Assembly (NCBI GenBank): GCA_002401455.1
Contig: NVTE01000003.1
Coordinates: forward strand, 1 to 64,000
Reading direction: 5' to 3'
From: Alphaproteobacteria bacterium
GTDB lineage: Bacteria; Pseudomonadota; Alphaproteobacteria; Sphingomonadales; Emcibacteraceae
Length of the DNA: 64,000 bases
The notes beneath the pieces are model-generated. The model did no database searches. It worked only from the letters and a program-made list of their open reading frames with translations, and was not told the origin of the DNA. Shown here piece by piece: positions 25,088-42,073 of the stretch; within the stretch, counting starts at the first letter, position 1, and the number at the start of each line of letters is the position of its first letter. The position numbers and the translations under genes are program-made.

Positions 25088-27436
25088 TTACAGCCGTACC
25101 TCAATCAGGGAAATGGACGGGATATGACCGGCCTGAAAACTCTCCAGGGTGATGGCCAGGAAATCCTCGGCAAACCGCACCGGCACGTCAAATTCAAATC
25201 CGGCGGTGATCACAACCCCGGTCCCGGGAGCTGTGTCAAATGTCACCTTGCCAGTGATTGTGTCCACCTGCCAACCGCTGGCCTGAACCACAGCATCAAG
25301 GGCAATCATCACCGTTCCCGGGGCCGGCTTGGTGATGGTCCGTAGATGGGAGATTCCGCCGCTGTCATAGGTCTTGATCAGCTGGAAAGTTACCGCAGTG
25401 TTGTCGCCGTTGCCGATCTGCTGGTCGGTTGCGGTCCTGTCCTGATCCGGGGATGTGCTTTTATAGTCAAGCCAGTCCTTATAGCGGAAACCATTGGCTC
25501 GGCCAGCCCGTGCCCGGAAAAAACTCAGCAGGTCACTGAGATCATTTTCCGACCGCAGGCCTAGACCGATATCATAAATATTCCGGGCTTCGGCCCATTC
25601 CCGGTTCCGCTGTTCATGACCGGAGGCCATCTCGACCACATTGGTTAAAAACTGGGGCCCGCCGCTGGCACCGTAACTGATGTCTTCGGCTAAGCGTATT
25701 TCGTGAAATCCTGTCATGACAATGTCCTGATCTTTGGTGTAAATTACCCCGTCCCGCATGATCTGGGGGTAGGCCCAAACGAAAACTTCGGTGAAGTTAT
25801 CCTGAAAACCCAACCTGGCCGCAGTATGGATATTTTTCCAGTTCTCCAAGGTCGTCGGCAATAGGTTAAACCCGGCAAAATAATGGGTCCTGGTTCGGGG
25901 GTAGGACAGGGTGAGGTCAATTTGATCAATGGCTTTTGTCCGTTTCCCCCAGGCCGCTTCCAGAGCAAAGTCATAATCTTCAATCTGCAGGAAATCAAAG
26001 GCGGGGTCCTGCCAGTGGCTTGTGGGGAAGTTAGCCTCCCCGGCTATAGGCGCCGTGTCCAGCAATACTTGGGGGCTGTAGAACAGAAGACCGACCTGTG
26101 CGGAGGGGTATTGAGCTTTAATCTGATCCCTGAGCCAGAGGGTGGACAGGCCCAGTTTATCACCGAGCCAGGTCAGATAATCCAGCTGATCGGCTGTGGC
26201 GGTCTCGGTAGAGAGAAGGTGCTTGGTCGGCACAACCCTACCGGTTTCTGATGTGTAAAGTGCTGTCGTGACATCATCATATAAATGGGGCACGCCCGTC
26301 CCGCCCTGGTCAATCCACCACCAGGGTTCGCCGACCTGGTAATGGTGATCTGTGCCCAGCTGATCGTTGATCTGTCCAAAAGCCAGAAACACATCGCGCA
26401 GATAATCCAGTGCCGCCGTATTGGTTGGTGCGACCAGGCTGGACGGCGGCTGCCAGCCGGTGAGCGCCGGGGTGGCGTCATGGGCCTTTTGTTGCCAGCT
26501 CGAGGGGATATTCTGGGCCAAGATCTCATAGGACAGGGAGAGGATGACCTTGAAGCCAAAAAACTGCGCTAGGTCCAGAAAATTTGCATGCCAGCTGATA
26601 GTGGCCTTGTTCAGTTTTGGTTTCGATGGGTCGATGACATAGCGGCTCTCGGTCCCGTCCCAGCTCAGGTTAAAATAATGGCTCATACCGACATAATGGG
26701 TGATCCAGCCCCGGTAGCCGAGCCGCAGCATATTCCAGATCACCCGTTCCGGGCTGAGAGAGGTGATATCATCATAGCCATTGGCGATCCGTAGGTCGTG
26801 GGCCTGAACATAACCATCGCCGATTTTCAGGGTCGAGGTCGGGCCGGTGATGGTGATCTGGGACAGGGTGACCTGGGCCTCTATGGCGCTGGGCAGCGGG
26901 CCGGTGGTCGTGCCGTCAAAGGCCGGGGGCACCATGCTGATAAACAGGCGGTCAATATCGGTGGGATAGACCGGGTCGGCTTCTGAGGGGTGTAGAAACC
27001 CCCCGGCGAGGTCATTAAAATCCAGTGTGATCACCGCGTCCTCCGCCGTGCCGACCGCATAATTCCACAGCCGGACATACCAGGTGCGGGCGGTGCCATT
27101 CTGATCCCGGCCCTCAAGGGTCAGGGTTGGGCTGTTCAGGCCGTCCAGGGCCTTGATGTTGCTGCTTTGCCAGTGGAAACTTAACACAGTATGGGAATAA
27201 TCTCGGGCCGTCTGATACTGGTGAAAAGGGTGATCTATGGTGTCTTCTGAGGCCCAGATCAGGCCGCATAGGTCCTCATAACGGTAAAAAACCAGATCAA
27301 CCACCAGACTGTCAAAGCCGGTGGTCACGGTGGAGGCCATCATGGGCCGGGGGAAGTTCACTGTCCAGTAGCGGGGGGAGAAGCGGCGGATAAAACTGCT
27401 TTCCGTCTGGTCCTCGGGGGTTGCCAACCAATACAT
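25088..27436 (-). CDS. g12-like DUF2460 protein with ~540-aa N-terminal extension containing a TIM-barrel/glycosidase-like region
   Basis: C-terminus EDISYGASGGPQFLTNVVEMASGHEQRNREWAEARNIYDIGLGLRSENDLSDLLSFFRARAGRANGFRYKDW is DUF2460; N-terminal region has VILSLSYE, GEPWWW, FLQIEDYDF, VFVWAYP. Confidence 0.82.
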   Translation of the reverse strand: MYWLATPEDQTESSFIRRFSPRYWTVNFPRPMMASTVTTGFDSLVVDLVFYRYEDLCGLIWASEDTIDHPFHQYQTARDYSHTVLSFHWQSSNIKALDGLNSPTLTLEGRDQNGTARTWYVRLWNYAVGTAEDAVITLDFNDLAGGFLHPSEADPVYPTDIDRLFISMVPPAFDGTTTGPLPSAIEAQVTLSQITITGPTSTLKIGDGYVQAHDLRIANGYDDITSLSPERVIWNMLRLGYRGWITHYVGMSHYFNLSWDGTESRYVIDPSKPKLNKATISWHANFLDLAQFFGFKVILSLSYEILAQNIPSSWQQKAHDATPALTGWQPPSSLVAPTNTAALDYLRDVFLAFGQINDQLGTDHHYQVGEPWWWIDQGGTGVPHLYDDVTTALYTSETGRVVPTKHLLSTETATADQLDYLTWLGDKLGLSTLWLRDQIKAQYPSAQVGLLFYSPQVLLDTAPIAGEANFPTSHWQDPAFDFLQIEDYDFALEAAWGKRTKAIDQIDLTLSYPRTRTHYFAGFNLLPTTLENWKNIHTAARLGFQDNFTEVFVWAYPQIMRDGVIYTKDQDIVMTGFHEIRLAEDISYGASGGPQFLTNVVEMASGHEQRNREWAEARNIYDIGLGLRSENDLSDLLSFFRARAGRANGFRYKDWLDYKSTSPDQDRTATDQQIGNGDNTAVTFQLIKTYDSGGISHLRTITKPAPGTVMIALDAVVQASGWQVDTITGKVTFDTAPGTGVVITAGFEFDVPVRFAEDFLAITLESFQAGHIPSISLIEVRL

Positions 27437-28020
27437 TATAAGTCCCTCTCTGCCCGGTCCATGGCCCGGCGTACCGCCACGGCCACCTGGGTACTACTGC
27501 GCTCTGTCATGTCATGTGCGCCGCCCTGATTGGTGATGTTGATGGTGATGTTACTACTGGTTCTGCCAGAGGATGCGGCCGTAGAGTTGGACCCCGGTTG
27601 GGCGATAATCCGTCCGGAACCTTCCGGCACAAACAGCTCCGGTCCCCGTTCGCCCACCAGATATGGTTGACGTGAGCCGACCGTGCCACCCCCGGCCCGG
27701 CCAAAAAGAAAACTACCCGCCAGATCTCCCAGGATACTACCCATACCGTTGCCGGAGCCAAACAGGCTGTTCAGGCCTGACTGGATGGCGCTGTTGGCGA
27801 TATCATTTAAGACTGATAGGGCAGCGCTTTTGAGGTTGGAAAAGCTGAGCTCGCCTGACCGGGCGAAGTTTTCAAACACCCGGGTCATGGCATCGGTGGT
27901 TTTGCCGGCGACGGCTTCGAGCCCGCCGAAATCTTTTTCGATGTCGGCCAACTGTCCACGCAGGTCGGCACTATCAGCTCTGATCTTCACGACCAGGCTG
28001 TCAAGAATGGTTTCAGTCAT
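27436..28020 (-). CDS. Short tape-measure-like protein, g11-like
   Basis: MTETILDSLVVKIRADSADLRGQLADIEKDFGGLEAVAGKTTDAM...GGGTVGSRQPYLVGERGPELFVP. Confidence 0.87.
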   Translation of the reverse strand: MTETILDSLVVKIRADSADLRGQLADIEKDFGGLEAVAGKTTDAMTRVFENFARSGELSFSNLKSAALSVLNDIANSAIQSGLNSLFGSGNGMGSILGDLAGSFLFGRAGGGTVGSRQPYLVGERGPELFVPEGSGRIIAQPGSNSTAASSGRTSSNITINITNQGGAHDMTERSSTQVAVAVRRAMDRAERDL

Positions 28021-28033: not shown

Positions 28034-28058
28034 AAAAAACCCGCCGGAGGGGCGGGTT
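28034..28058 (-). terminator. Intrinsic-terminator-like hairpin directly before g11 RBS
   Basis: Minus: AACCCGCC-CCTCC-GGCGGGTTTTTTATT then GGAAAGAATTATG. Confidence 0.7.
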
Positions 28059-28136
28059 GATTTAAGTCATGGCGACAATTGTTAAGGGTTCCCTCTCAAA
28101 TGAAGGAAAAAAATATATCAAGGAAACGACTAAACG

Positions 28137-28430
28137 CTATCGCATGATGTTGCTGAGGTTCATGAAGGAACTGACGGCCCGGCCGACCAGGAACATGCCG
28201 GAATAGATCATCACATTGATCCAGTTCATATGGCCATAGCCGTCGCCAATATACTGGCCGAGCAGCACCATGAGCATGATCAGGCCAATGGCCTGAAACA
28301 GGTTGGCGCATAACCTTACCCGCTTTAAGATCTTTTCACGCTTGGGACTGGTTTCTTCCTTGATGCCGGCTTTACGGTCGGCTACCCGCTCGCGCAGGGA
28401 TTTTCTCGGGGTCTGGTTCTTTTTTCTCAT
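28137..28430 (-). CDS. Small two-TM membrane protein inside GTA cluster
   Basis: Basic N-terminus then LFQAIGLIMLMVLLGQYIG and VMIYSGMFLVGRAVSSF. Confidence 0.65.
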   Translation of the reverse strand: MRKKNQTPRKSLRERVADRKAGIKEETSPKREKILKRVRLCANLFQAIGLIMLMVLLGQYIGDGYGHMNWINVMIYSGMFLVGRAVSSFMNLSNIMR

Positions 28431-28438
28431 GCCCCGTT

Positions 28439-28639
28439 TTACGCCTTTACCTGCCGGGATACAAGATCATTTAATTCCGACCGGCTTAACGGCGCTTCCC
28501 CCGATCCGCCCCGGACTTTTCGCCAGCCTGCGTAAGCACACCAGAAATCAGCCGGGGTCGCCCGCCAGAACTGATCCGGGGACCAGCCAAAATTAACATA
28601 GGCAATTTCAGCATAGCGGGCCCAGTCAATCTGGTGCAT
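28439..28639 (-). CDS. Phage tail assembly chaperone, g10.1-like
   Basis: DWARYAEIAYVNFGWSPDQFWRATPADFWCAYAGWR. Confidence 0.82.
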   Translation of the reverse strand: MHQIDWARYAEIAYVNFGWSPDQFWRATPADFWCAYAGWRKVRGGSGEAPLSRSELNDLVSRQVKA

Positions 28640-28967
28640 TTTCTTCTGTATTTTCTTCTGAATTTTCTGGAGTATTGAGGCCGACCAGGCACAGGATCAG
28701 CAGATCCCGGACCACCGGGCTGGCCTTGGCCAGGCCCTCGGCCAGGATCAGTTTGCCCACCTGCTCAAAATTCAGCCGGTCCTCCATGGTCGCCCAGATA
28801 ATCACGGTCATTTCCTTCAGGCCAAAATCGCCGTCAGCGGCCCTGACCGCCAGCCCGATGATGCCGCCCAGGCGTTCCTCAATATCCATGATCGCCTGGA
28901 AGGTTGGTTTCAGGCGATATTCCCCGCTGTCGAGGGTGAGGGTGACGCTGTTCCTAAACACTGGCAA
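28626..28967 (-). CDS. GTA family protein, g10-like
   Basis: FQAIMDIEERLGGIIGLAVRAADGDFGLKEMTVIIWATMEDRLNFEQVGKLI. Confidence 0.85.
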   Translation of the reverse strand: MPVFRNSVTLTLDSGEYRLKPTFQAIMDIEERLGGIIGLAVRAADGDFGLKEMTVIIWATMEDRLNFEQVGKLILAEGLAKASPVVRDLLILCLVGLNTPENSEENTEENAPD

Positions 28968-29367
28968 AACTCACCACGCCGGAGCTTTCCAGGGCGATGC
29001 TATAGGTGCGTTCGCCATTATAGTCCCCGGCATATTCCAGGGAGGTGACCTGAAAGGCGCCGGTGAATTTTGCCCCGCTTTCAAAAACGATTTGATACGT
29101 ATCGACACTGCTGGTCAGGGCCTTGGCCTGGAGGGATGTTTCACTGGCGCTGTCGGTAAAAATACCACTGCCGCTCAGAGAGATTTTCCGGAGCCCGGCT
29201 CCGGGTAATATTTCCCGCCAGCCGCCTGACATCTTGTTGGTCACATCAACCATTTCATTATTAATCCTCAGCGATGTGGAGCGCATGCCGCCGACCACAT
29301 CAAATGTTTCCGGATTACCTCCATCGCCAATTTTCAACAAAAAGGCCCGTCCTTTTTCTGCTGCCAT
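28954..29367 (-). CDS. Phage major tail protein, TP901-1 family, g9-like
   Basis: MAAEKGRAFLLKIGDGGNPETFDVVGGMRSTSLRINNEMVDVTNKMSGGWREILPGAGLRKISLSGSG. Confidence 0.92.
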   Translation of the reverse strand: MAAEKGRAFLLKIGDGGNPETFDVVGGMRSTSLRINNEMVDVTNKMSGGWREILPGAGLRKISLSGSGIFTDSASETSLQAKALTSSVDTYQIVFESGAKFTGAFQVTSLEYAGDYNGERTYSIALESSGVVSFASV

Positions 29368-29464
29368 TTGTCTGTACTCCTTTGTCTATAAGTTTTGAAT
29401 GGGGGGGAACGGCACCGCAGAATGCGGTAGCCCCCTGGCCATCCTCCTCAAAAAAAATGTCACT

Positions 29465-29486
29465 AAAAAACCCGCTCAGGGCGGGT
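29465..29486 (-). terminator. Intrinsic-terminator-like hairpin after the inserted gene pair and before g9
   Basis: Minus: ACCCGC-CCTGA-GCGGGTTTTTT. Confidence 0.65.
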
Positions 29487-29545
29487 CAGCTTAAATATCG
29501 CTCCTCCAGGGAGGGCGGTTTTACGTTAGGAACAGTTATGTGATG

Positions 29546-30040
29546 TCACTTGATTTTTCTCTCATGCCACCGAAAATAGCGTCTTATGAGTTGCCGGAAA
29601 TAAAACATCGCCGGGCGAAACAGTGTGATCAAAAAGAATAGTGATAAAAATACCAAATACACATTCTGCATCGAAAAAGTATGATATTGATTATAGCCTG
29701 ATTCAGAGTAAAAAAAGCTATCGGGTTTATAGGGGTCTATTATAGACGTTACAATTTGTAAAACGCCAAGGAACATAAAGAAGAAATTTAATATCCATGC
29801 AGGTAAAATATAAGTTTTTGGGTAAAAGTAAGCTAATACGCCAAATAAGATAACATAGATAAAAATCAAAGCCTCTATCAGAGGAAATGACCGGGGGAGT
29901 ACGGCAGATAAGAACATGAAAATTATAAGAAATATAACCCAGGAAATTGGGGCCCACCCCAAGGCTGAGGCAAAACCAAGAAGAGTTCTTTCATAAAATC
30001 GCCATTTATATGAGTTATTAACATCCTGAATCATGTTCAA
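29546..30040 (-). CDS. AT-rich multi-TM protein, candidate immunity protein
   Basis: Several hydrophobic segments (APISWVIFLIIFMFLSAVL, ALIFIYVILFGVLAYF, FFFMFLGVLQIV, YLVFLSLFFLITLF); 4-bp overlap with upstream toxin-like ORF. Confidence 0.6.
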   Translation of the reverse strand: MNMIQDVNNSYKWRFYERTLLGFASALGWAPISWVIFLIIFMFLSAVLPRSFPLIEALIFIYVILFGVLAYFYPKTYILPAWILNFFFMFLGVLQIVTSIIDPYKPDSFFYSESGYNQYHTFSMQNVYLVFLSLFFLITLFRPAMFYFRQLIRRYFRWHERKIK

Positions 30041-30681
30041 AATGTCCCCCGCCAGTTAAAAGTCTCGCTCCAGTTCGCTGTAATTTTGTATGGCTTCGAA
30101 TAAGGCAAGTCTTGATCTCCGTTAATCTTATTGAGACTATCAAGGGCATCGCTAAATTTATCGTTTATTTCAAATTTCAATACCCCTTCTAAATGGAGTG
30201 TTCTGTTGATACAACTTACATTAAGGGCAATTCGTGCTGATCGATAAAAGGTGGATCCGCCAACAGAGTAAAGAGGCCCCTCTTGTGTAACATCTGTTGT
30301 TGTTCTATCTCGGTCCGAAAATATTACCATTGTTTTGTTAGCCTCCGTTCGTTCTAATTTACGACAAACGTCAACGGCTTTTCGTATGGCTAATTTTATT
30401 TGTTTAGTTTTAAAACTCTCAACGGCACTCCTGACAGAACGGCTATTCCGAAATTGTTCCAACAGCCCGACATTCGCCAAATTAACGGTTCGACCATTTC
30501 CCAATGCATAATGATCTAGAAAATCACGTGTTGTCCAGCTTTAATGGGACAAGAATTCATCCTCGCTATAAGCGGACGGATTTGATTTATGGCTCTGGAA
30601 ATGCTCGACTGGTAAAACTCTACCGGTTCTCAGATAGTGGCTCATTTGGGTCCGGGCGGGTTTATGCTTCTGATCATACAT
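30037..30681 (-). pseudogene. Toxin-like C-terminal domain ORF interrupted by in-frame TAA (stop at 30541-30543); distal part 30037..30504 open
   Basis: MYDQKHKPARTQMSHYLRTGRVLPVEHFQSHKSNPSAYSEDEFLSH*SWTTRDFLDHYALGNGRTVNLANVGLLEQFRNS...; FLDHYALGNGRTVNL resembles polymorphic-toxin C-terminal domains. Confidence 0.5.
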
Positions 30682-30767
30682 AGGTTATCGCCACAACAAT
30701 AAATTCTACTATAAGTCGTAACACGGCAATTTAAAGGCAAAAAAACATGGGCCTGGTTGAGATGCGG

Positions 30768-31172
30768 TCAGTCCTGGATGGTTCTGGCCCGAAACCGCAG
30801 GATGCCGTGGCGTACCTGACCATCGCCATCAAAAAAATTCTCAAAGAAAATGAAATCCAGCGCCACCAGCTGGTGCCCGGCCAAGGCAAGGTTCTGCCCG
30901 TTCAGCAGGCTGGCCACCTGATCGGCCAGGGACCGGATCTCTCCGCCGCCGCGCTGTCCGGACCAGATATGAATATCAATCAGATGTTCCTGCCCGGTGA
31001 AATCCTTTGCCGACCAGTCCCGGGCACTGCCCTCGCCGATGGTCAGATAGGGCAGGCTTTGGCCTTCGGGGGCGGGGTCGAATATGCCCGAGATGTCGGC
31101 CATCAATTGGCTGTCCCCGGCCAGCCGGTCATGGATGGCCTGCCACAGGCTTTGTGAGCTGAGTATTGTCAT
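30768..31172 (-). CDS. DUF3168 tail completion protein, g8-like
   Basis: LWQAIHDRLAGDSQLMADISGIFDPAPEGQSLPYLTIGEGSARDWSAKDFTGQEHLIDIHIWS. Confidence 0.88.
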   Translation of the reverse strand: MTILSSQSLWQAIHDRLAGDSQLMADISGIFDPAPEGQSLPYLTIGEGSARDWSAKDFTGQEHLIDIHIWSGQRGGGEIRSLADQVASLLNGQNLALAGHQLVALDFIFFENFFDGDGQVRHGILRFRARTIQD

Positions 31173-31193
31173 GGCAAATATCTTTCAGAAAAA

Positions 31194-31505
31194 TTAAATA
31201 AGACCGGAGAATGTCACTTTGACCTCTTCTGTCGCCGGGGTCAGGAAAGGCCGGGCCGGCTGGCGAATGGTGCCGAATTCCACATAGCGGGCATAGGGCT
31301 TGTCGGTGATAATCCGCATGCCGCCCTCGGGTAGTTTTTCTGCTCGGAGTGACTGCGCCAGCGGGCTTGACCCTTTGGGGTTTTTCAGGCCGCGGTAGAC
31401 CCGGGCTCTGGCCCCGATGACAATCTGCTCGGCCATTTGTTCAATCAACCGGGCCAGTTTTTCTTCATAACCGATTATGGTTTGGGTTAAGTTCAGGCTG
31501 GTCAT
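31194..31505 (-). CDS. HK97 gp10-like tail component
   Basis: PYARYVEFGTIRQPARPFLTPATEE. Confidence 0.82.
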   Translation of the reverse strand: MTSLNLTQTIIGYEEKLARLIEQMAEQIVIGARARVYRGLKNPKGSSPLAQSLRAEKLPEGGMRIITDKPYARYVEFGTIRQPARPFLTPATEEVKVTFSGLI

Positions 31506-31825
31506 CAGGGGTGATCCTTCACGATCTCAATTTCCAGAATGCGTTGCCGGTTATCAGGATTGAGCAGGCTGGTCACCCGGTACGCCTGTCCCTGCCACAG
31601 GATATTCCGGGTAGGGAGCAGGTCCTGCTGATAGCGCACCCGGACGGTATAGCTTTCCGCCATATGCCTTTGTCGGGCGGCGGTGGTTACGCCGGCGGAT
31701 TTGGCCGTAACTTCGGCCCAGACCACGGCGATATCCTGCCAGTTTTCCTGTTGCTCTCCGGCGGTGGTCGGGCTGAGCATCTGAGCACGGCAGGTGATTT
31801 TTTGGTGCATAGATCTGGTTGTCAT
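31505..31825 (-). CDS. Phage head-tail adaptor, g7-like (start MTTRSMHQK overlapping g6 stop)
   Basis: WQDIAVVWAEVTAKSAG...ESYTVRVRYQQDLLPTRNILWQGQAYRVTSLLNPDNRQRILEI. Confidence 0.88.
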   Translation of the reverse strand: MTTRSMHQKITCRAQMLSPTTAGEQQENWQDIAVVWAEVTAKSAGVTTAARQRHMAESYTVRVRYQQDLLPTRNILWQGQAYRVTSLLNPDNRQRILEIEIVKDHP

Positions 31826-32391
31826 AGGGCCAGCCGCCGGTAGGGCTGCCACAGTTTTTCCGCCATGAGGACAGCCTGGTTGTCGGCCATCTGACCGCCG
31901 TCATAGGCTGCCGCCAGCCAGTGAAGAAGGCCAAGACGAATGTCGGGGGGAACGTCATTTTGACTGTCGCCAAACCCGGCACTGACGGTGATGCTGATCC
32001 CGGCGACATCTGTTTCAGGCTCGGGCCATTGATAGCCGGTCTGGGGTACGATTTTGGCCAGGTAGGACACATTGTCCAGCAGGTAATTGGCCGGGGCGAT
32101 GACCTGAAAAGCGCCCGTGGTCCAGACCTCTATTTTGTCAATGGACAGCAGGGGAGATAACGGGATTTGGATCACCCCTTCCGGACCATCACCGCGCCAG
32201 TTGTTAAGGGTCAATTGCCATTGCTGGCTGATCAGTTTTCTTGCCGTGAAGGTCTCACAGGCTGTAGTGGCCGCGCGGATATAACTGGCGATCAAGGCGC
32301 CCTCATCCTGGTGGGATATTTTCAGGAAATCCCGGGCTTCGGACAAGAGGACCGGCAACTGTACGGCCATGGAGATAAGCTGTGTTTTCAT
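31822..32391 (-). CDS. Head-tail connector protein, g6-like
   Basis: LPVLLSEARDFLKISHQDEGALIASYIRAATTACETFTARKLISQQW. Confidence 0.88.
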   Translation of the reverse strand: MKTQLISMAVQLPVLLSEARDFLKISHQDEGALIASYIRAATTACETFTARKLISQQWQLTLNNWRGDGPEGVIQIPLSPLLSIDKIEVWTTGAFQVIAPANYLLDNVSYLAKIVPQTGYQWPEPETDVAGISITVSAGFGDSQNDVPPDIRLGLLHWLAAAYDGGQMADNQAVLMAEKLWQPYRRLAL

Positions 32392-32681
32392 TTTTCTTCA
32401 ATCCTGATGGTGAGGGACCGCTCATCGGTGCGGCCCTGATCGGTGGTGATCCGGTTGGTCAACTGATAGACTTTTCCCGCACTGCCCCCGGTGACAAAAA
32501 CGGTTGTCATACCGGCGGCCGGGAGAGGAATATTATCAACGACCAGGTCATCTGGCCTGCCCTGGGGCAGGATAAACCAGCTACTGGCAGTGATCTGTTC
32601 ACTGCTCAGGAGATAACTCACCGACCAGTCAATGACATAGTCAAGGGTCGCCTTGGGATCTTTTAGATATTGTTCGGTCAT
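32388..32681 (-). CDS. Phage fiber-tail adaptor-like protein
   Basis: KDPKATLDYVIDWSVSYLLSSEQITASSWFI...VFVTGGSAGKVYQLTNRITTDQGRTDERSLTIRI. Confidence 0.7.
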   Translation of the reverse strand: MTEQYLKDPKATLDYVIDWSVSYLLSSEQITASSWFILPQGRPDDLVVDNIPLPAAGMTTVFVTGGSAGKVYQLTNRITTDQGRTDERSLTIRIEEK

Positions 32682-32695
32682 ATCTTTTCCATTAT

Positions 32696-33076
32696 TTAAG
32701 AGGGGTCTGCAATTTCAATATCCCAGGCGCCGAGGGTCAGCGTGCTGCCCGACGTTAGGCCCAGCGCTGTGCTGGTTGTGACATAAAGCAGGACGCTGTT
32801 CACCGTATCGAGAAGCGCCACATGGTCGGCGGTCCCGGTGTTATCTACGGTTATGCCCGTTTTGCTGGCGATGGTAACCTTGCGGCCACTCACCTCCCCA
32901 TTTGCCACTGTGAAGTCAGCTCCGGCCATAGCCACGTCGGCCAGAAAGTTAGCGCCAGCCACATTGGCGGCGGCAAAGGTCAACGGTTCCCCCGCGCAGG
33001 TTGTCATAAGGGTGCATTTATTCTTTATTTCATTCAGCGCCGCATCCAGGACGGCGTCGGCTACTTTTTTTGCCAT
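32696..33076 (-). CDS. Phage structural-type hypothetical protein
   Basis: MAKKVADAVLDAALNEIKNKCTLMTTCAGEPLTFAAANVAG...VTIASKTGITVDNTGTADHVALLDTVNSVLLYVTT; family seen next to LamG/fiber genes in phages. Confidence 0.65.
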   Translation of the reverse strand: MAKKVADAVLDAALNEIKNKCTLMTTCAGEPLTFAAANVAGANFLADVAMAGADFTVANGEVSGRKVTIASKTGITVDNTGTADHVALLDTVNSVLLYVTTSTALGLTSGSTLTLGAWDIEIADPS

Positions 33077-33078
33077 GA

Positions 33079-34497
33079 TTAGATCCTTAAAGTTCGAGTG
33101 TTGGTAGGGTGTGTTGTTCTATCGCTGGAAGGGGGCGTTGAGGTCCGGTTTTTCCGCGTCGCCTTATGGCTTCGGGCAAGGTTTGGGGTGAAGGCCGTGG
33201 GGTCAAATATTCCCGCCTCATCACTTATCAGTCTGTGTGTGTTGTCTGTCACCGGGAGGGTTTGATTTTGTATCAGTGAGGTATTGTTCGCCGTGTGGGT
33301 GTGGTTTGTGCTGTTGACCGCTCCGCTGTGGGTCTGTGTGCTGGACGGGCTGTTCGCTGTCTGAGCAAGAGCTGCACCATTAACAATGAAATTATGGGCC
33401 TGTGTCTGTGTCGGACTGTCTGATGCGTGGCTGCACGATGTGCCGTTGACTGCGATGGTCGCCCCACTACTTACAGCCTCTGGAGTGCCTGCGGTGGCGA
33501 ATGTTGCCGGATCGGATTGGTTGTTGTATGCGGTGGTGAGCCAGTCGTCTGAAAGTACGGCTATGCGATAGCGGACTTCTTTCAGGCCACCTGCGAAATA
33601 ATCACCGTTAGGAGTCCCGCCAATCGATACTTGGGTGTTGCTATCGCCGATAAGACCTGTTTTCGTAGTATTCGTAAAACCTGCATTGTCCTTCCGGACT
33701 CCTAAAATCGCACCATCATATCGGAAAGTTACAAATTGCCATACATTTAGCGTTGCATCCGAATTATCAGCCCCAGCAGCAGCAATTGAGCCGGTGGCAA
33801 CTGCAGATGCCCACCCCTCGCCGGAACCGCCAGCGTCAGCCCAAAACTTATGACCCGCGCTGCTTGTTACACGTGTCGCGCTAATGATTCTATCGATCCC
33901 CACGGTAGTAGGTTTTACCCAGGCCTGGATCGTTAATGTGTCTACCCCACTTAGTGCGTCCTCAATTAACGCCCCAAGATCAATGCGCTGATTAAGCCCG
34001 TTCAGGCTAATTGCCGTTCCATAGGGGCCATCTTCGCTGGTGGGTGAGTTAATCAGTGTTCCGTTATGGTTGCCTGCTGAATCCGTTCCCTCCGCGCCAT
34101 TAAGATGATACACAGCTTCATAATCAGACCAAACCGAATTGCGGCCATAGGCGGCGATATCCGCAGGCTGGGCTTCTCCCGCCTTTTTGTACCAGACCCA
34201 GATATCCCTCTCCGCGGCGGTGTTGAGAGTTGGTCGTTTGGTATATAATTCTACATCGGGTGTGCCGCCAGTGACAAAGGTGACAATGTCTAAACTCATC
34301 TGGACGGCCCCGGGGCTATCCTCGGTAAAAACCACATCTCCGCCGCCGTTGAGGGCGCTGTTGTCCCCGCCGTCAAGCATTTCAGTTGGGAAATTGGCCT
34401 CGGTTAGCAGGATCGGGAAACTGGTGTTGTTGCCGGATATCTTGGCATCAGGGATCGTTATTTTACATTTTCGCGCCCAGCCTGTCGGAAATGCCAT
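33079..34497 (-). CDS. DUF2341-like/LamG (concanavalin A-like) protein with Thr/Ser/His-rich C-terminal repeats
   Basis: WARKCKITIPDAKISGNNTSFPILLTEANFP; YHLNGAEGTDSAGNHNGTLINSPTSEDGPYGTAISLNG LamG motif; repeat tail. Confidence 0.8.
   Translation of the reverse strand: MAFPTGWARKCKITIPDAKISGNNTSFPILLTEANFPTEMLDGGDNSALNGGGDVVFTEDSPGAVQMSLDIVTFVTGGTPDVELYTKRPTLNTAAERDIWVWYKKAGEAQPADIAAYGRNSVWSDYEAVYHLNGAEGTDSAGNHNGTLINSPTSEDGPYGTAISLNGLNQRIDLGALIEDALSGVDTLTIQAWVKPTTVGIDRIISATRVTSSAGHKFWADAGGSGEGWASAVATGSIAAAGADNSDATLNVWQFVTFRYDGAILGVRKDNAGFTNTTKTGLIGDSNTQVSIGGTPNGDYFAGGLKEVRYRIAVLSDDWLTTAYNNQSDPATFATAGTPEAVSSGATIAVNGTSCSHASDSPTQTQAHNFIVNGAALAQTANSPSSTQTHSGAVNSTNHTHTANNTSLIQNQTLPVTDNTHRLISDEAGIFDPTAFTPNLARSHKATRKNRTSTPPSSDRTTHPTNTRTLRI
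33240..33475 (-). repeat. Imperfect ~22-aa tandem repeats coding the C-terminal tail of the LamG protein
   Basis: IAVNGTSCSHASDSPTQTQAHNF / IVNGAALAQTANSPSSTQTHSGA / VNSTNHTHTANNTSLIQNQTLPV. Confidence 0.6.
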
Positions 34498-34520
34498 GAC
34501 CTATCCTTTAACTGAAAATT

Positions 34521-34550
34521 AAAAAAAGAGGGCGACCCCAAAGGCCGCCC
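34521..34550 (-). terminator. Intrinsic-terminator-like hairpin between capsid gene and LamG gene
   Basis: Minus: GGGCGGCC-TTTGG-GGTCGCCC-TCTTTTTTT; one G-U pair on the minus transcript that is A-C on the plus transcript. Confidence 0.7.
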
Positions 34551-34576
34551 CATAGGTTGAGGGAGGAAGGTGTGAC

Positions 34577-35785
34577 TTACAGAGCAAACTGCAAGAGCTT
34601 GATGGCCTGATCATTGGTGACCGCCCCGCCCACGCGCTTGGTGGTATAGAAATGGACGTAAGGTTTGTTGGAGTAAGGGTCACGCAGAATGCGGGTGCCC
34701 ATACGGTCCGTCACGGTATAGGCCCGTTTCATGTTGGCAAAACTCAGGGACAGGGAGGATGCTGCCTTTACCGGCATATCGGCAACCTCAATCACCGGGT
34801 AGCCCAGCAGGGTAGCCGGGGCGCCTTTTTCCAGTCCGGGACGCCAGAGGTAATTACCGTCAACATCCTTGAATTTACGGATTTCCGCCAGCAGGCTGGT
34901 ATTCATATAGAATTTGGCGTCTCCCCGGTAGCCGGATTTCATGGCATGGATCATATCGACCAGAATATCTGATGGATCAGAGGCCGCCCAGTCGCCGGCG
35001 ACACCGGTTTTCAGGGCTTGAATTTCACCGAAGGCCCGGCTACCATCACTGGCGGTGCTGACGGTATATTGCAGGAAGCCTTTGGGTTTGTTGGTGCCGC
35101 TGCCATTGACGAAGGCGTCATTTTCCTGATAGGAAAATTCTTCGGCCAGTTCTTCGGACAACCAGGTTTCCACATTGAAACTGGCATCATCCAGCATGGT
35201 CTGGGTCGCGGCCGGATTGGCGTAGATTTCCCCAAGTGGTGGGATGATTTCTTGTAATGTGGGGGTGTTGGTTTCCACCCGGGTACCGGATTCCGAAATC
35301 CAGCCGGAGGTAATGCCGCCCACATTAACTAGCTTTTTATAGGTCGAAGAGCCAATGGCAATAACATTGGCCTCTGCCCTGATCGGGGACAGATCCCGCA
35401 GGCGTTTTTCGATCAGCTGATCCAGCTCCACCGGAACCGCATAGCCGCCGTCACTGTCAACCGTTGTGCTCAGGGCTTTTTGATCCAGTGGCACGTCATG
35501 ACCCTTGCGGATAAAGCCGTCAAAAAATTGACGTTTCTTTTCCAGCTGCGCCGAATCCAGGGTCTGTTTGGCCGAAAGGTTAGGGCGGTTTGACGCCGCG
35601 TGCAGGCTGTTGGCTTTGGCCTGAAGCCGGTCCATTTCCTGGCCCAGGCGGGTCAGTTTTTCTTCGGTTAGGCTATCGGCCTGTCCCTTGCTTTCAATTT
35701 CCGCCAGTCTTTCATCATTGGCGGACTTGAAAGTTTCAAAAGAACGGGTCAGGTTTTCCAACGCTTCTTTAGTTTCCAATGTCAT
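34577..35785 (-). CDS. HK97-family major capsid protein, g5-like
   Basis: TTVDSDGGYAVPVELDQLIEKRLRDLSPIRAEANVI ... PKGFLQY ... FYTTKRVGGAVTNDQAIKLLQFAL. Confidence 0.96.
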   Translation of the reverse strand: MTLETKEALENLTRSFETFKSANDERLAEIESKGQADSLTEEKLTRLGQEMDRLQAKANSLHAASNRPNLSAKQTLDSAQLEKKRQFFDGFIRKGHDVPLDQKALSTTVDSDGGYAVPVELDQLIEKRLRDLSPIRAEANVIAIGSSTYKKLVNVGGITSGWISESGTRVETNTPTLQEIIPPLGEIYANPAATQTMLDDASFNVETWLSEELAEEFSYQENDAFVNGSGTNKPKGFLQYTVSTASDGSRAFGEIQALKTGVAGDWAASDPSDILVDMIHAMKSGYRGDAKFYMNTSLLAEIRKFKDVDGNYLWRPGLEKGAPATLLGYPVIEVADMPVKAASSLSLSFANMKRAYTVTDRMGTRILRDPYSNKPYVHFYTTKRVGGAVTNDQAIKLLQFAL

Positions 35786-36343
35786 TCAGGTGTTCCTTTG
35801 TAGATTTCCAACCGTATCATTACGGGTGGATGGCGCCATAAGCGCGGTTAAATGCCGAAGACCGGCAACGACGGCGGTCTCGTCCGCCGCCGTGATAAAA
35901 TCTGTCTTGAAAGCGGAGATGCGGGCCTGTTCATTCATGGGGAATGTCACCAGGGAAATTTCCCACAGGTCCACGTCCAGGAGCAGCCGCACCCCATCCG
36001 CGCGTTTTTTAGATTTTAGGGTATGAAAACCAATGGACAGGCCGTCCAGCGCCCCAGCTCCCAGCAACTGATAGGCTTCCTGGGCCCGGGCCACATCCAG
36101 GATCAACCGCCCCTGCACATAGAGCCCCCGGGCGTCCTCATAAACTTCGTCCAGGATACCGACCGGCTCCTTGGGGTCATGTTGCCAGAGAAATTTAATG
36201 CCGCTGGCTCTGCGGTCCAGCAGGGAGCGTCTGAAAGCCCCAGGCAGGATCAGGTCATTGCCCCGGTCCACCACATTGAACACGCTGGCATAGCCCTCGA
36301 AATGGCCGATCTGGCCCTCTGTTTCTTGGTTAAGTAAAATCAT
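35786..36343 (-). CDS. HK97-family prohead protease, g4-like
   Basis: GHFEGYASVFNVVDRGNDLILPGAFRRSL...FLWQHDPKEPVGILDE. Confidence 0.95.
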   Translation of the reverse strand: MILLNQETEGQIGHFEGYASVFNVVDRGNDLILPGAFRRSLLDRRASGIKFLWQHDPKEPVGILDEVYEDARGLYVQGRLILDVARAQEAYQLLGAGALDGLSIGFHTLKSKKRADGVRLLLDVDLWEISLVTFPMNEQARISAFKTDFITAADETAVVAGLRHLTALMAPSTRNDTVGNLQRNT

Positions 36344-36664
36344 TCATTGTCCAAATGTTTGGCCAAGCTGAAGCAGCTTGAATTTCACGGCCAGCCCCAG
36401 AAGCAGGGCCGAAAAGATCAGACGCATGAACCAGCGGATCACGGCCTGACGGGCGGTTTTCTTGGTATCGCGCCAGCTGTCGAGAAGGTCGCGCAATTCG
36501 GAGATGTCGGAACCGGCACTCGCGTCACTCAAGCCCAGTTGGGCTAGGGCACGGGCAGCGCCTTCTTCCGAGGCCTGGGCGATCAGGAGATAGATATTCT
36601 CGTCAGATACCGGGTGTTTTTTTGCCTGCCGTACCGCTTGGAACAGGCCGGATCCAATTCTCAT
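36344..36664 (-). CDS. DUF6127-like protein, g3.5-like
   Basis: SEEGAARALAQLGLSDASAGSDISELRDLLDSWRDTKKTARQAVIRWFMRLIFSALLLGLAVKF; position between portal and protease. Confidence 0.72.
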   Translation of the reverse strand: MRIGSGLFQAVRQAKKHPVSDENIYLLIAQASEEGAARALAQLGLSDASAGSDISELRDLLDSWRDTKKTARQAVIRWFMRLIFSALLLGLAVKFKLLQLGQTFGQ

Positions 36665-37866
36665 TCCAGGGTATCGCCGCCCGGGATGGCCCCCAGGCCA
36701 ACGGCGGTGCGCTTTTCATTGATGGTCAGGAAACCGGCCTGGCCAATCCGTTGCCACAGGGCCTGACGGTCGTGGCTCAGGGCGGGAATGCTGTCTAGGT
36801 CATAGGCAAGCCGCAGGTCATCGCCAAAATAGGGGGTCAGCCAGACGTTCAGCGACGACATCATCTTGGCCATCATCGGCAGCAGGGTTTCCCGCCATAA
36901 CGCCCGATTGGCTTCCTTGTAATTGCTATAGGTATTGTCGCCGGGAATGCTCATGACCATGGGCGGCACTCCGAAGGCCAGGGCAATCTCCCGGGCGGAG
37001 ACATGTTTGGCATTGATAAAATCCATATCCGTCGGCGAGAAAGCCATCTGCTGCCACTTCAGGCCACCTTCCAGAAGAAGGGGTCGGCGGGCATTGCGGG
37101 TGCCCTGGAAATTTTCTTCCATTTCCTCCTTCAGCCGGTCGAATTGCTCAGTACTGAGCACGGCATTGCCGTCTTTCGGCTCAAACACCAGGGCACCGGA
37201 GGGTCGGGCTGAATTATCCAGCAGGGCCTTGTTCCAGCTGGAGGCCGCATTATGGACATCAATGCTGTAGGCCGCCGCCTCCAGGGGTGACAGGCCATAA
37301 TAATCATCGGTGGGATGGAAGGTCTTGATATGAAGGACCGGGCTTTTGCCGGTGACCGGGTCGACGGAAAACTGATGTTCCCGACCAGCAACCCCATATA
37401 TGTAGGCTTTGGGCCAGCCGCTGGCCCCGGGAACAATTTTCACACGGTCCGGGCGCAGAGCATAGAGTTCCGCCGGTTGGCCATCGCCGCCCATGACCAT
37501 TTCCAGGTAGCTGTTGCCTGCAATATTGAGATAGGCAAAGGCGGTCTCAAAAAACACCGCCCGGCCCTGGGTGGGATTGGGCCGCTCCAGCAGGTCCAGC
37601 AGGGGGTGATGATCAAGTCGCTGGTCGCCCCTGAAGAGCTGAAGGGGCACAGAGGCCGCACTTTCCGACAGGATGCGTATTGCCCGGTTGGTGATGACAT
37701 TCTTGGCATAGCCTTCGTCGGCCAGGCTTTGGTAATTCCGGCCTGACCAGCGCGGCGCATTCAAGCCGAGCCAGAGGGTTTCGGTCCCGCCCAGCAAAGG
37801 GGCGACAGCGCTTTCTTTCTTCTCCGGTGGTGTATCTTTGCCAAAAAGGCGACGAAACGGTCCCAT
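36661..37866 (-). CDS. Phage portal protein, HK97 family, g3-like
   Basis: VITNRAIRILSESAASVPLQLFRGDQRLDHHPLLDLLERPNPTQGRAVFFE; start MGPFRRLFGK. Confidence 0.95.
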   Translation of the reverse strand: MGPFRRLFGKDTPPEKKESAVAPLLGGTETLWLGLNAPRWSGRNYQSLADEGYAKNVITNRAIRILSESAASVPLQLFRGDQRLDHHPLLDLLERPNPTQGRAVFFETAFAYLNIAGNSYLEMVMGGDGQPAELYALRPDRVKIVPGASGWPKAYIYGVAGREHQFSVDPVTGKSPVLHIKTFHPTDDYYGLSPLEAAAYSIDVHNAASSWNKALLDNSARPSGALVFEPKDGNAVLSTEQFDRLKEEMEENFQGTRNARRPLLLEGGLKWQQMAFSPTDMDFINAKHVSAREIALAFGVPPMVMSIPGDNTYSNYKEANRALWRETLLPMMAKMMSSLNVWLTPYFGDDLRLAYDLDSIPALSHDRQALWQRIGQAGFLTINEKRTAVGLGAIPGGDTLE

Positions 37867-38046
37867 AGGTCTCTCCAGATGAGGGGTGAAATAAAGTCCG
37901 GACGAACGGTAAAGTGGGCCGCGGGCGCTGCACTTATGCTCAAAAGCTGTAATAAAGTTTGCAGGAGCGGAACCTTGTCCGCCGTCCGGTAGGGGCTGAT
38001 TGTCAAGGATAGTCCGAGGAACAATCAGCAAAAATAAATCAGAAAA

Positions 38047-39396
38047 TCAGATATGTCGTATTTGAGGCCGGCTTTGGGCTTTCAGCAACAGTTCCGTCAC
38101 CGCCCAGACCATGGCATCGACCCGGTCCGGGCTTTTGCCACCGTCCAGGCCGTCGGGGGTCAGGCTGCACATCTGGTCTTCCAGCTCTGAGAAAAATCCC
38201 CGGTGCATGACCCGGCCCTGTTCATAAAGGGCAGCCACGGGTTCTGCGCGCAGGACTTTGCCCCGGCTGGCTCGTACTGCCCGGTAGCTGACATTCGGGT
38301 CAATCTGCCGCAACAGGCTTTCCACCAGTTCGCCGCCATTATTGACTTCAGCCACCAGCCTGTCGGCATCAAACCGGTGATAGGCACTGAGTGCCGCTTT
38401 GGCCCAGCCGTGGGGGCTGAGACCTTGAACCGAGCAGTCTTCCAGAATGTAAGCCGTTTTGTTGCGGTCCAACCCGGCGACAATGATGCCGCAGGTATCG
38501 GCCTTTTTGCCGCTGGTCACCGGCGGGTCGACGGCAACCACGATGCGCTCAAAGTCAGGAACCTGCCGTATTCTGATAGTCTCCAGCAGGTCCCGGGTCC
38601 ATAGGGCACCGGGCACATCGGTTAGAATTTCGCCGTAAATTTCCTGGCGGCCAATGCGGGTGCCGTCATATTGCCCGACCACCTGATCAAAGAAGCTCTG
38701 GGGCAGGTTCGATCTATTGTCAAAGGTCGAGCCCCGAACAATGCGGGTTGCGCCGTCCTCGACCAGTCGCCGTAGCAGGGGGATATTGCGCGGGGTCGTG
38801 GTCGCCAGAACCTTGGGCTCTTTACCGAGCCTCAGGCCGAGCAGAAGATTTGACCATGTTTCCTCAATATAACGCCATTTGGCCATCTCATCGGCCCAGG
38901 CCACATGATGTTGCGGCCCGCGAAGCTGATCGGGCGATTCCGCAGAATAAAGAAAGGCCTGAACCCCGTTGGGCCAGACCAGCTTTTTATTGCTGCTGTA
39001 AAAGGTCGGCATGAAAGATTTTGGGGTCGCGGCCAACAGTCCGCTTTCGCCCTCGATCATGGTCAATTTACCGTCCAGATGGGTATCGGCCACCAGCGCG
39101 ATCCGTTCCGGGGCGCCTTTGGGGGCGATCAGTGGGCTGTCGCCTTCGACCATATCCCTGATCCATTCAACGGCGGTTCTGGTCTTGCCAAAACCGCGTC
39201 CGGCCAGGATAAGCCAACAGAACCACTTGCCCTCCGGCGGCAGTTGATTTTGGCGGGCCCAAAAGCTCCAGTCGTAATTCAGGGCCTCACATTCGTCTTC
39301 TGTCAGGTCCCGTAACAGTTCCTGGCGTCGGGTGGGGTCAAGGGCTGAAATCCATTCGGCCAGCGAGCGATTGTCGCCGCCTTCAGCTGTCGGCAC
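38047..39396 (-). CDS. Terminase large subunit, g2-like
   Basis: FCWLILAGRGFGKTRTAVEWIRD Walker A; VAWADEMAKW Walker B; IVVAVDPPVTSGKKADTCGIIVAG nuclease. Confidence 0.96.
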   Translation of the reverse strand: MPTAEGGDNRSLAEWISALDPTRRQELLRDLTEDECEALNYDWSFWARQNQLPPEGKWFCWLILAGRGFGKTRTAVEWIRDMVEGDSPLIAPKGAPERIALVADTHLDGKLTMIEGESGLLAATPKSFMPTFYSSNKKLVWPNGVQAFLYSAESPDQLRGPQHHVAWADEMAKWRYIEETWSNLLLGLRLGKEPKVLATTTPRNIPLLRRLVEDGATRIVRGSTFDNRSNLPQSFFDQVVGQYDGTRIGRQEIYGEILTDVPGALWTRDLLETIRIRQVPDFERIVVAVDPPVTSGKKADTCGIIVAGLDRNKTAYILEDCSVQGLSPHGWAKAALSAYHRFDADRLVAEVNNGGELVESLLRQIDPNVSYRAVRASRGKVLRAEPVAALYEQGRVMHRGFFSELEDQMCSLTPDGLDGGKSPDRVDAMVWAVTELLLKAQSRPQIRHI

Positions 39397-39814
39397 TGGA
39401 TTTTTTCGCCATGAGGCCCAGTTTTTTCATCAGGCGGTTGCGCGGGGAGGGGCCTTTGGTGTTGTCGTCAACATTCTGGCGTTTTTTACCGTCGCCAAAT
39501 ATTTCCGGCCGATGGGCCTTCAGAAGAAAGATGGCGATTTTCTCATCCACCACCGGGCCATCGGGCACTTCGGTATCGTCTTTTCCCATTGCTTTATCCC
39601 ATAAGTATGCTTCCAGGTAATCCAGGGCCTGTTCCATGGCATGGTGCCATTTCTCCTGGAATTTTGGATATTGATTGCGCCGCCGATAGACCAGCGACCG
39701 GTCCAAATTCGCCTTAGTGGTGGCCTTGGTCACATTGCCGGTCTGTTGTAGGACCTCCAGAAAGAGGGCCTCTTTCTTCGTCGTCCACCGTTTGCTGGTC
39801 GGTGATTTTGCCAT
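39383..39814 (-). CDS. Small terminase-like/g1-like DNA-binding protein (probable start MAKSPTSKRW)
   Basis: RWTTKKEALFLEVLQQTGNVTKATTKANLDRSLVYRRRNQYPKFQEKW HTH; overlaps terminase large gene. Confidence 0.8.
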   Translation of the reverse strand: MAKSPTSKRWTTKKEALFLEVLQQTGNVTKATTKANLDRSLVYRRRNQYPKFQEKWHHAMEQALDYLEAYLWDKAMGKDDTEVPDGPVVDEKIAIFLLKAHRPEIFGDGKKRQNVDDNTKGPSPRNRLMKKLGLMAKKSSADS

Positions 39815-39832
39815 ACAAACCCTTTCAGACAT

Positions 39833-39860
39833 AAAAAAACCGCGCTCATAGGAACGCGGT
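39833..39860 (-). terminator. Intrinsic-terminator-like hairpin in the 5' leader of the GTA cluster
   Basis: Minus: ACCGCG-TTCCTATGAG-CGCGGTTTTTTT followed by ATGTCTGAAAGGGTTTGTATGGC. Confidence 0.55.
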
Positions 39861-39950
39861 GCAGCTTTGGGCAAGAACCCTGTGTTTTGATAGTTTGTCG
39901 GAGGCGGGGTCTTAGGTATTCCTGAGAGCCAATTTCCGACCATGTAATAA

Positions 39951-39979
39951 AGACTACACTAGCGGCCCCGCTTTGTCAA
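39951..39979 (-). promoter_or_regulatory. Candidate sigma70-type promoter of the GTA cluster (TTGACA-N17-TAGTCT)
   Basis: Minus: TTGACA AAGCGGGGCCGCTAGTG TAGTCT. Confidence 0.6.
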
Positions 39980-39983: not shown

Positions 39984-40003
39984 TTATTCCTATTTATTCC
40001 TAT
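39984..40003 (-). repeat. Perfect tandem direct repeat (TTATTCCTAT)x2 immediately upstream of GTA -35
   Basis: TTATTCCTATTTATTCCTAT read directly. Confidence 0.75.
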
Positions 40004-40022
40004 AATAGGCAAAAATGTAGGA

Positions 40023-40799
40023 TTACTCAGGTTTTTTCAGGATATTCTTGGCCACATTGACCACGTCACCAGTGAAGTTGATCATCTTCTGGCCGCCGTC
40101 CACGGGAATCGTCGTGCCATTGATCGATTTACTGGTCAGGAGTAGCAGCGCGGTCTTGGCGATGTCTGCCACATCAAGTGGCTCACCGATGAAGTTCAGA
40201 TGGCTGGCCAGGTCGAAATTTCGTGCACTCTGGGTACTGCTGATCAGGGTCAGGCCCGGGGCGATGCCATTGACCCTGACTTTCGGGCTCAGGGCCTGGG
40301 CCATGGTTTCTGTTGCGCCGCGCAGGGCATATTTGCTCAGGGTATAGGAATGAAAATCGGGGTTGAGGGCAAAGGCTTTGCTGTCGATGATATTGATGAC
40401 GCTGCCTTTCTCGCCGTCAGGGATCCGGCCGTGCAGGGCGCGAGCCAGTTGTAGCGGTGCCCGAAGGTTGACATTCTGATGGGAGGCAAAGCTGTCTTCG
40501 GTAAAATCAAGCAGGCTGTCATTGATAAACTGCGAGGCGTTATTGATCACATGGCGCAGCGGGTGGTCCGGATGTGAGCATAAATTCAATAATCCCTCGA
40601 CCTGATCATAGTCACCAAGGTCTCCCGGGATCAGCGCCCCATTACCGCCTTGTGCCTGAATGGATTTTAGGGTTTCTTCGGTCTCAGACTGTGATGTGTG
40701 ATAATGCAGATAGATGTAATAACCTTGTTTTGCCAGCATTTCGGCCAGGCATTTGCCAATGCGTTTGCCAGCGGCGGTTATCAGGATAGCCTCTGCCAC
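40023..40799 (-). CDS. SDR oxidoreductase, pteridine/dihydromonapterin reductase-like (GTG start)
   Basis: ILITAAGKRIGKCLAEMLAKQGY...INNASQF...YTLSKYALRGATETMAQAL...VDGGQKM. Confidence 0.8.
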   Translation of the reverse strand: MAEAILITAAGKRIGKCLAEMLAKQGYYIYLHYHTSQSETEETLKSIQAQGGNGALIPGDLGDYDQVEGLLNLCSHPDHPLRHVINNASQFINDSLLDFTEDSFASHQNVNLRAPLQLARALHGRIPDGEKGSVINIIDSKAFALNPDFHSYTLSKYALRGATETMAQALSPKVRVNGIAPGLTLISSTQSARNFDLASHLNFIGEPLDVADIAKTALLLLTSKSINGTTIPVDGGQKMINFTGDVVNVAKNILKKPE

Positions 40800-41344
40800 T
40801 ATTGTATATCCAGATCGTTGATGGACATGTCCGGCCGCTGCCACCAGGGGGGATTGGCCCCTTCATAATGAGCGGTGCAGATAACCTGTGCGGGATCACC
40901 GCTGAAGCTGACCGTATTGGTCGGCGTTTCGACAACGTCGACCTTGTGACAACGGACGGCAAGTCCCTGATCAAGCAGGATCGCATTTATTTTTGACATA
41001 AAGCAGGCGGCGAGAACTTCCGTGGTCGGGTCGCCCGGCGTGATCATGATATGGGGCAGGTTTTCCGGCTCAGTGGTCTTGAAATAATCCAGCATCTGAT
41101 CCTGGCTTGACAGTTGAAGGCTGTGGTCCACATGATCGTCAATCCACCTGTGCCAGACCTGTTTAAGGATGGCAAAGGGCGCCATCATATTCACTGCCCC
41201 GTCCAGCTGGTCATTTCCTGTGGAAACCAGATAGACTTTGACATATTCGTTATGGCCGTGGGGTATGAAACACCGACTGTTCCTGATATTGAACAGACGA
41301 TGGCTCATGCAATAGCGGCGGGTAAAACATATTTCAAAGCTCAT
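40799..41344 (-). CDS. 6-pyruvoyltetrahydropterin/6-carboxytetrahydropterin synthase family protein
   Basis: CFIPHGHNEYVKVYL metal motif, DHSLQL, PTTEVLAACF. Confidence 0.82.
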   Translation of the reverse strand: MSFEICFTRRYCMSHRLFNIRNSRCFIPHGHNEYVKVYLVSTGNDQLDGAVNMMAPFAILKQVWHRWIDDHVDHSLQLSSQDQMLDYFKTTEPENLPHIMITPGDPTTEVLAACFMSKINAILLDQGLAVRCHKVDVVETPTNTVSFSGDPAQVICTAHYEGANPPWWQRPDMSINDLDIQ

Positions 41345-41383
41345 AATTGGCTTGATATCTTAGTCATGGCCTCGAGTCCAGAA

Positions 41384-42073
41384 TTAATGTCCCAACCGAT
41401 AGCCGCCGGCTTCGGTGACCAGAAGGGTCGCGGACGAGGGGTTTTGTTCTATTTTCTGGCGCAGGCGATAGATATGGGTCTCCAGCGTGTGGGTGGTGAC
41501 CCCGGCGTTATAGCCCCAGACCTGGTCCAGCAAGACATCCCGGCTGATGGGGCTGCCATCGGACCGTTTGAGATATTTCAGGATCGCGGTTTCTTTTTCC
41601 GTCAACCGGATCAGCTCCTGGGTGTCCTGGTTAATGAGGGTCTTGTCGCCGGGCTTGAAAGAATAGGGGCCGATAATAAAGGTCGCGTCTTCACTGATGG
41701 CATGCTGGCGTAATTGGGCCCGGACCCGGGCCAGAAGAATGCCAAACTTGAAAGGTTTGGTCACATAGTCGTTGGCTCCGGCATCAAGCCCAAGGATGGT
41801 GTCGCTGTCGCTGTCATTGGCGGTCAGCATGATGACGGGGATTTTGATGTTGGCTTTGCGCATCAGGCGACAGACCTCCCGCCCGTCCAGATCGGGCAAT
41901 CCCACATCCAGAAGAATAAGGTCAAAGTTACCGTCTTTTGCGGCATTCAGGCCGTCCATGCCGGTACCGGCCTCGGTCGTGGCATATTCCTCATGGAAGC
42001 TGAACTGCTCGGCCAGGGTGGCGCGAAGCTCTTCATCATCATCCACCAGTAAAAGATTATAAGTCTGATCCAT
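41384..42073 (-). CDS. OmpR-family response regulator
   Basis: LLLVDDDEELRATLAEQF..LILLDVGLPDLDG..KPFKFGILLARVRA + winged helix. Confidence 0.95.
   Translation of the reverse strand: MDQTYNLLLVDDDEELRATLAEQFSFHEEYATTEAGTGMDGLNAAKDGNFDLILLDVGLPDLDGREVCRLMRKANIKIPVIMLTANDSDSDTILGLDAGANDYVTKPFKFGILLARVRAQLRQHAISEDATFIIGPYSFKPGDKTLINQDTQELIRLTEKETAILKYLKRSDGSPISRDVLLDQVWGYNAGVTTHTLETHIYRLRQKIEQNPSSATLLVTEAGGYRLGH

Follow-up and report, generated by a model that had tools for sequence, protein, structure and literature searches.

Four hairpins followed by T-runs lie in the gene transfer agent (GTA) cluster of the 64,000-nucleotide stretch of alphaproteobacterial DNA analysed here (the window), and by their sequence all four are typical intrinsic (Rho-independent) terminators on the transcribed strand. 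We consider it moderately probable that they do different work: the hairpin in the leader would be a gate passed by antitermination, the one after the capsid gene a stop that sets capsid dosage, and those before g9 and g11 terminators that insulate embedded genes. The preliminary description of this DNA had seen them as four staged steps of one control, a picture that proved too uniform, since the hairpins at 29465 and 28034 are read here as the ends of embedded cargo and host genes.

The source assembly (G000, 69% complete) is that of an Emcibacter-like alphaproteobacterium whose closest relatives by capsid sequence (82–90% identity) are mostly Emcibacter sp. MAGs. The cluster occupies the minus strand from ~40.0 to 20.2 kb and is syntenic with those of relatives, in the order small terminase, large terminase (TerL), portal, protease, capsid, LamG protein, connectors, tail tube, tape measure, GTA hub and shortened megatron (Table 1). 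Its head-tail genes, conserved in order (TIGR02218 GTA hub, Rcc01695 family, a partial GTA_megatron, portal, capsid and terminase), identify it, by gene content, as an RcGTA-type gene transfer agent. The g12-like gene (25088–27436) carries fused non-contractile tail sheath domains, and g15 (20756–23023) encodes 755 amino acids compared with 1299 in the megatron model. Between g13 and g14, antisense to the cluster, is a plus-strand gene (23522–24238) whose tail is a lysine/alanine-rich repeat; a GTA remnant (L324:5257-5847) carries a gene at the matching position, likewise on the plus strand.

Table 1. Features of the GTA cluster and its control region, listed in the direction of transcription.
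Feature	Position	Strand	Evidence
CCTATTATAGG palindrome, candidate activator site just 5' of promoter	39999..40009	-	Conserved in most family loci
Predicted GTA promoter TTGACA-17-TAGTCT, AAGCGGGG in spacer	39951..39979	-	Conservation
Start of transcribed region, CATGGTCGGAAATTGGCTC	39926..39944	-	Conserved in genus
Small leader hairpin (GGG-loop-CCC) 5' of terminator, genus only	39868..39881	-	Stem kept, with differing sequence, in 8 genus members
Leader intrinsic terminator between promoter and g1	39833..39860	-	Energy, d score 30.3, covariation, conservation
g1, small terminase-like	39383..39814	-	phrog_4044 terminase small subunit; same ATG used in relatives
Terminase large subunit	38047..39396	-	Terminase_6N/6C
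Major capsid, HK97 fold	34577..35785	-	PF05065, TIGR01554
Post-capsid element: UUCCUCCCU stretch and intrinsic terminator, alpha-r8/suhB-like	34521..34570	-	RF00519 score, CCTCC motif, covariation
LamG-domain protein	33079..34497	-	Laminin_G_3
Low-GC cargo insert, gp17 to tail tube gene, with the 29465 terminator at its end	29403..30767	-	Gap and GC comparison
Terminator at cargo insert end, 98 nt before g9	29465..29487	-	Energy, score
g9, tail tube	28954..29367	-	PF06199
Two-helix membrane protein gene, 97 aa, not GTA core	28137..28430	-	Distribution in family
Terminator between membrane-protein gene and g11	28034..28058	-	Energy, score; conserved in L110, L112, L114, L115, L122
g11, tape-measure-like	27436..28020	-	Profile matches

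All four elements were found on the minus strand within 1–3 bases of where they had first been placed, with stems at 39839–39860, 34529–34551, 29469–29487 and 28038–28058 and T-runs reaching down to 39833, 34521, 29465 and 28034, respectively. In the same order, folding energies with tails were −14.5, −18.0, −11.2 and −14.3 kcal/mol, folding z-scores −4.6, −3.5, −3.6 and −4.1, and d'Aubenton-Carafa-type scores (d) 30.3, 13.6, −0.9 and 14.6. Five hairpins on the sense strand scored −0.9 or higher, namely these four and one inside terL, compared with a mean of 0.18 and a maximum of 1 in 60 dinucleotide shuffles of the 20-kb cluster; GC-rich hairpins followed by U-tracts are present above chance, and the four are the top intergenic terminator-like elements inside the cluster. 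The 34521 hairpin pairs better on the minus transcript (−18.0 versus −11.5 kcal/mol), as had been surmised. The placement 'directly ahead' of a start given in the preliminary description holds for g1, the LamG gene and g11 (ATG at 39814, 34497 and 28020), where the T-run ends 14–24 nt short of the start codon and so runs nearly into the next ribosome site, but not for g9, whose ATG at 29367 is 98 nt from the T-run. Among related GTA clusters, where we checked hairpin conservation as that description had advised, the leader, post-capsid and g11 hairpins are conserved and the g9 hairpin is genome-specific.

The leader hairpin lies ~85 nt 3' of the predicted start site. No part of the region is better conserved in Emcibacteraceae than the promoter: TTGACA-17-TAnnnT is kept in 12/12 loci, and in the genomes searched the −35/spacer block occurs without mismatch in the GTA cluster only, bar one match within coding sequence. 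The hairpin was present in all 12 Emcibacteraceae leaders read, 90–140 nt from the −35 start. Its stem keeps 91% of pairs (32–54% pairing when the partner strand was slid) and shows six two-sided changes, a covariation that, coming from only eight sequences, is support for the stem rather than proof. Between T-run and g1 there remain ~20 nt, too short for a second promoter, so the promoter's transcripts must cross the hairpin, which would have to be leaky or antiterminated. Plain leakiness, with the hairpins setting relative mRNA levels in the manner of simple partial terminators and a strong promoter pushing polymerase through with no antitermination factor, accords with the consensus −35 and 17-bp spacer, with the high need for capsid that a post-capsid stop would suit, and with the outcome of the antiterminator search described below; it is nevertheless rather unlikely, as d values of 13 to 43 in 11/12 loci mark a strong leader stem, four terminators in series would leave very little read-through, and a dosage role leaves the stop before the first gene unexplained.

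The genes 5' of the leader differ between loci and some point away from it (L110, L115 and L119), so the leader hairpin does not simply terminate an upstream gene. In the window these genes (40023–42073) are a response regulator, a PTPS-like gene and an SDR, whereas the usual Emcibacter context is COQ9, rpsU, GNAT, hydrolase and lipoprotein; the difference suggests a move or rearrangement. A GTA regulator was considered at this position and set aside: in the window and in relatives the genes there, named from sequence, are host genes.

Attenuation was also part of the preliminary description. In its classical form a leader peptide, a ligand or a competing helix would decide whether the leader terminator forms, which we regard as very improbable here. 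The transcribed leader of ~110 nt does have the extra small hairpin, and in the window an ATG in frame with g1 stands at its start; this ATG is, however, absent from L112, L122 and L123, and L110 and L113 have an interrupted frame, so leader-peptide attenuation was rejected. Neither a conserved leader peptide nor a mutually exclusive antiterminator helix was found, the folded leaders having no conserved or consistent competing pairing, and the leader gave no riboswitch match. Processive antitermination, by contrast, is the part of the earlier proposal that best suits the leader hairpin, though not all four: its position between promoter and g1 is conserved, a second promoter has no space, and Caulobacter offers a precedent. 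In our analysis the hairpin fits a gate that needs antitermination, and it corresponds to the early-cluster terminator of a GafYZ-type system.

We postulate that one conserved promoter (39979–39951) drives the cluster, with transcripts that would start near 39944 and, by default, terminate in vivo at the leader terminator after ~110 nt, before g1, leaving the particle genes off. On GTA induction, polymerase would be enabled to cross the leader and the later stops by a processive antiterminator that joins it at the promoter or in the early transcribed region. The post-capsid terminator would still shed part of the polymerases, the rest reading through, and give more capsid than tail mRNA, and the alpha-r8-like capsid 3' end may release a small RNA.

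Just 5' of the promoter, CCTATTnATAGG or close variants occupy the palindrome position in most Emcibacteraceae GTA loci. As a regulon marker CCTATTnATAGG was rejected: its other genomic copies are no commoner than those of a reversed-pattern control, and the two examined lie in coding or unrelated sequence. GafA-bearing relatives have a AACCAAATAGG-like sequence 5' of the promoter and often AGCGTnACGCT in the spacer. At their transcript start, variants of the window's CATGGTCGGAAATTGGCTC, of the form CATrGTCgaaAATTG, occur at the same spacing in 20/36 promoters versus 0/12 and 0/7 controls, which are small because few control regions give a promoter pick. The window spacer AGCGGGGCCGCT is a perfect palindrome, but genus-wide the symmetry is weak (41/2000 shuffles did as well), being clearer in GafA-bearing relatives; as the genus does not keep it, a GafZ-type spacer palindrome was not retained as a firm claim.

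In the Caulobacter GTA, polymerase is carried past terminators within the cluster by GafZ, a homologue of the GafA C-terminal part (PMC11150451). Antiterminators of the lambda-Q type (PF06530, PF03589) were not found in Emcibacteraceae aside from a single PF06530 match, under the threshold, in G028, where no capsid relative was found; nor did the family yield an extra NusG paralogue, one NusG per genome being the rule, or the cluster any Caulobacter-like 150-bp repeats. For GafA and GafZ we used DUF6456 (PF20057), which we take to be the Pfam domain that matches them. This search detects the Caulobacter protein, our positive control, and finds the domain in 13/16 genomes from the order's other families, frequently beside the GTA cluster. 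Across 33 Emcibacteraceae genomes, several ~98–100% complete and some incomplete, no GafA/GafZ was found even at E up to 10 with a profile built from GafA proteins of the order itself, a result that would still be compatible with a very divergent relative. The stops are thus retained in Emcibacteraceae although no GafZ is detected there, so another factor is to be expected.

Nearly every Emcibacteraceae locus has the post-capsid hairpin behind its capsid stop, and in the genus the hairpin's stem pairs in 100% of the cells compared, with two-sided changes. Just 5' of it stands a conserved UUUCCUCCUGCAAACU stretch, UUCCUCCCUCAACCU in the window, that matches the core of the alpha-r8 small RNA, which consists of UUUCCUCCCU and then a terminator (PMC12559287). 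Against a cut-off of 41 bits, the RF00519 model scores 30 bits in the window, 25–35 bits in five relatives and 42 bits at the G006 capsid 3' end; most genomes have a separate full-score member. The CCTCC motif precedes 12 of the 13 Emcibacteraceae post-capsid terminators, compared with 0/50 post-capsid terminators in other groups and 1/312 for other terminators. Matches to a NiCo riboswitch and to MIR5286 were far under cut-off and taken as chance. Control of late gene dosage, as first proposed for all four sites, fits this hairpin and not those at 29465 and 28034, and capsid-dosage control is a plausible role for it. If real, a small-RNA-like capsid 3' end would connect the production of particles with small RNAs of a family that has been implicated in the response to starvation. 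Possible, though doubtful, is a fuller version of our reading, in which the antiterminator would be unrelated to GafZ and lambda Q and recruited to a promoter with an early transcribed sequence that alphaproteobacterial GTAs conserve, and each stop of polymerase behind the capsid gene would yield an alpha-r8-type small RNA as the end of the capsid transcript.

The hairpins at 29465 and 28034 are better read as mainly insulating embedded genes, because one lies in a genome-specific insert and the other comes after a gene that persists where the GTA has been lost. The gap between gp17 and the tail tube gene is 1403 bp in the window versus 13–55 bp in nine relatives, the insert has a GC content of 0.35–0.41 versus ~0.55, and old gp17-end sequence is left at its right edge; at the same junction in relatives a hairpin of the 29465 type is absent. 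Relatives of the insert's two genes are located before g11 in L112 and L115. Within the insert (29546–30681) a reading frame broken by a stop upstream of a 155-aa ORF is followed by a membrane protein, and the insert may be decayed. The 97-aa membrane-protein gene ahead of g11 is present in 27/33 family genomes, GTA-less ones included; it stands alone at the empty GTA site in three GTA-less genomes (one genus, those examined) and beside a GTA remnant in G018, and its product may be host-useful or holin-like. Both terminators would end embedded genes that are transcribed on their own, in the cargo insert and for the presumably host-useful membrane protein, and would protect the tail genes from that transcription while the GTA is off. 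Other low-GC inserts lie between GTA core genes in L115 and L119 (before portal and protease), each terminator-ended, with the T-run followed by an ATG or the next ribosome site.

These two hairpins, and the extra ones at the low-GC insert ends of L115 and L119, would also be expected if every hairpin simply ended a neighbouring or inserted gene (morons, upstream host genes) with no part in GTA control. As an account of all four this is distinctly unlikely: the leader hairpin is 3' of the GTA promoter and kept where the 5' neighbour points away, and no insert precedes the post-capsid hairpin.

A gate at the leader and a stop after the capsid gene have counterparts elsewhere in the class. In 85 terL loci, from the class and viral contigs, a strong sense terminator lay 5' of g1 in 43 (antisense 9; inside terL 4), leaving about half of the class loci without one, and in 54/171 capsid loci a strong terminator followed the capsid stop (antisense 1; inside the capsid gene 0); these counts are not independent because the loci are related and partly redundant, with some near-duplicates and some phage relatives among them, and some of the terminators 5' of g1 may be those of the preceding gene. 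The recurrence of promoter-proximal and post-capsid terminators suggests that GTAs may generally be switched by terminator bypass.

To our knowledge, and in the literature searched, GTA antitermination has been demonstrated only in Caulobacter, and the Emcibacteraceae are informative in that the stops are kept where the only known GTA antiterminator is not detected. T7-like phages have a terminator, Tphi, after the capsid gene; the post-capsid stop resembles it in lying just 3' of the major capsid gene and differs in lying within a GTA operon and being joined to an alpha-r8-like element. The late switch of phage lambda at PR'-tR' uses the antiterminator Q. As there, late structural genes stand behind a promoter-proximal terminator and a loading site is expected at the promoter, although the promoter elements differ and no Q-type protein was found here; the lambda comparison has been drawn for the Caulobacter GTA as well (PMC11150451). 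With alpha-r8/suhB/MmgR (RF00519; PMC12559287) the capsid end shares a UUUCCUCC stretch ahead of a Rho-independent terminator, but here this sits in the capsid 3' UTR and is mostly under the Rfam cut-off. RcGTA has the same structural gene family and order; its GafA, whose C-terminal part binds the promoter in Rhodobacter capsulatus (PMC9638019, PMC6363796), is not known to act as an antiterminator and is not detected in Emcibacteraceae. The Caulobacter GTA, with GafYZ/IHF activation and GafZ antitermination (PMC11150451), likewise has an RcGTA-type cluster, an early terminator, an element between −35 and −10 and a long 5' leader. Its terminator, however, is three 150-bp repeats after the first gene and not a simple hairpin before it, and its GafZ has no relative detected in Emcibacteraceae. 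Relative to that precedent, what appears new from sequence comparison is a stop placed before the first gene, widespread and kept in a family without detectable GafZ, together with a capsid end that resembles a small RNA.
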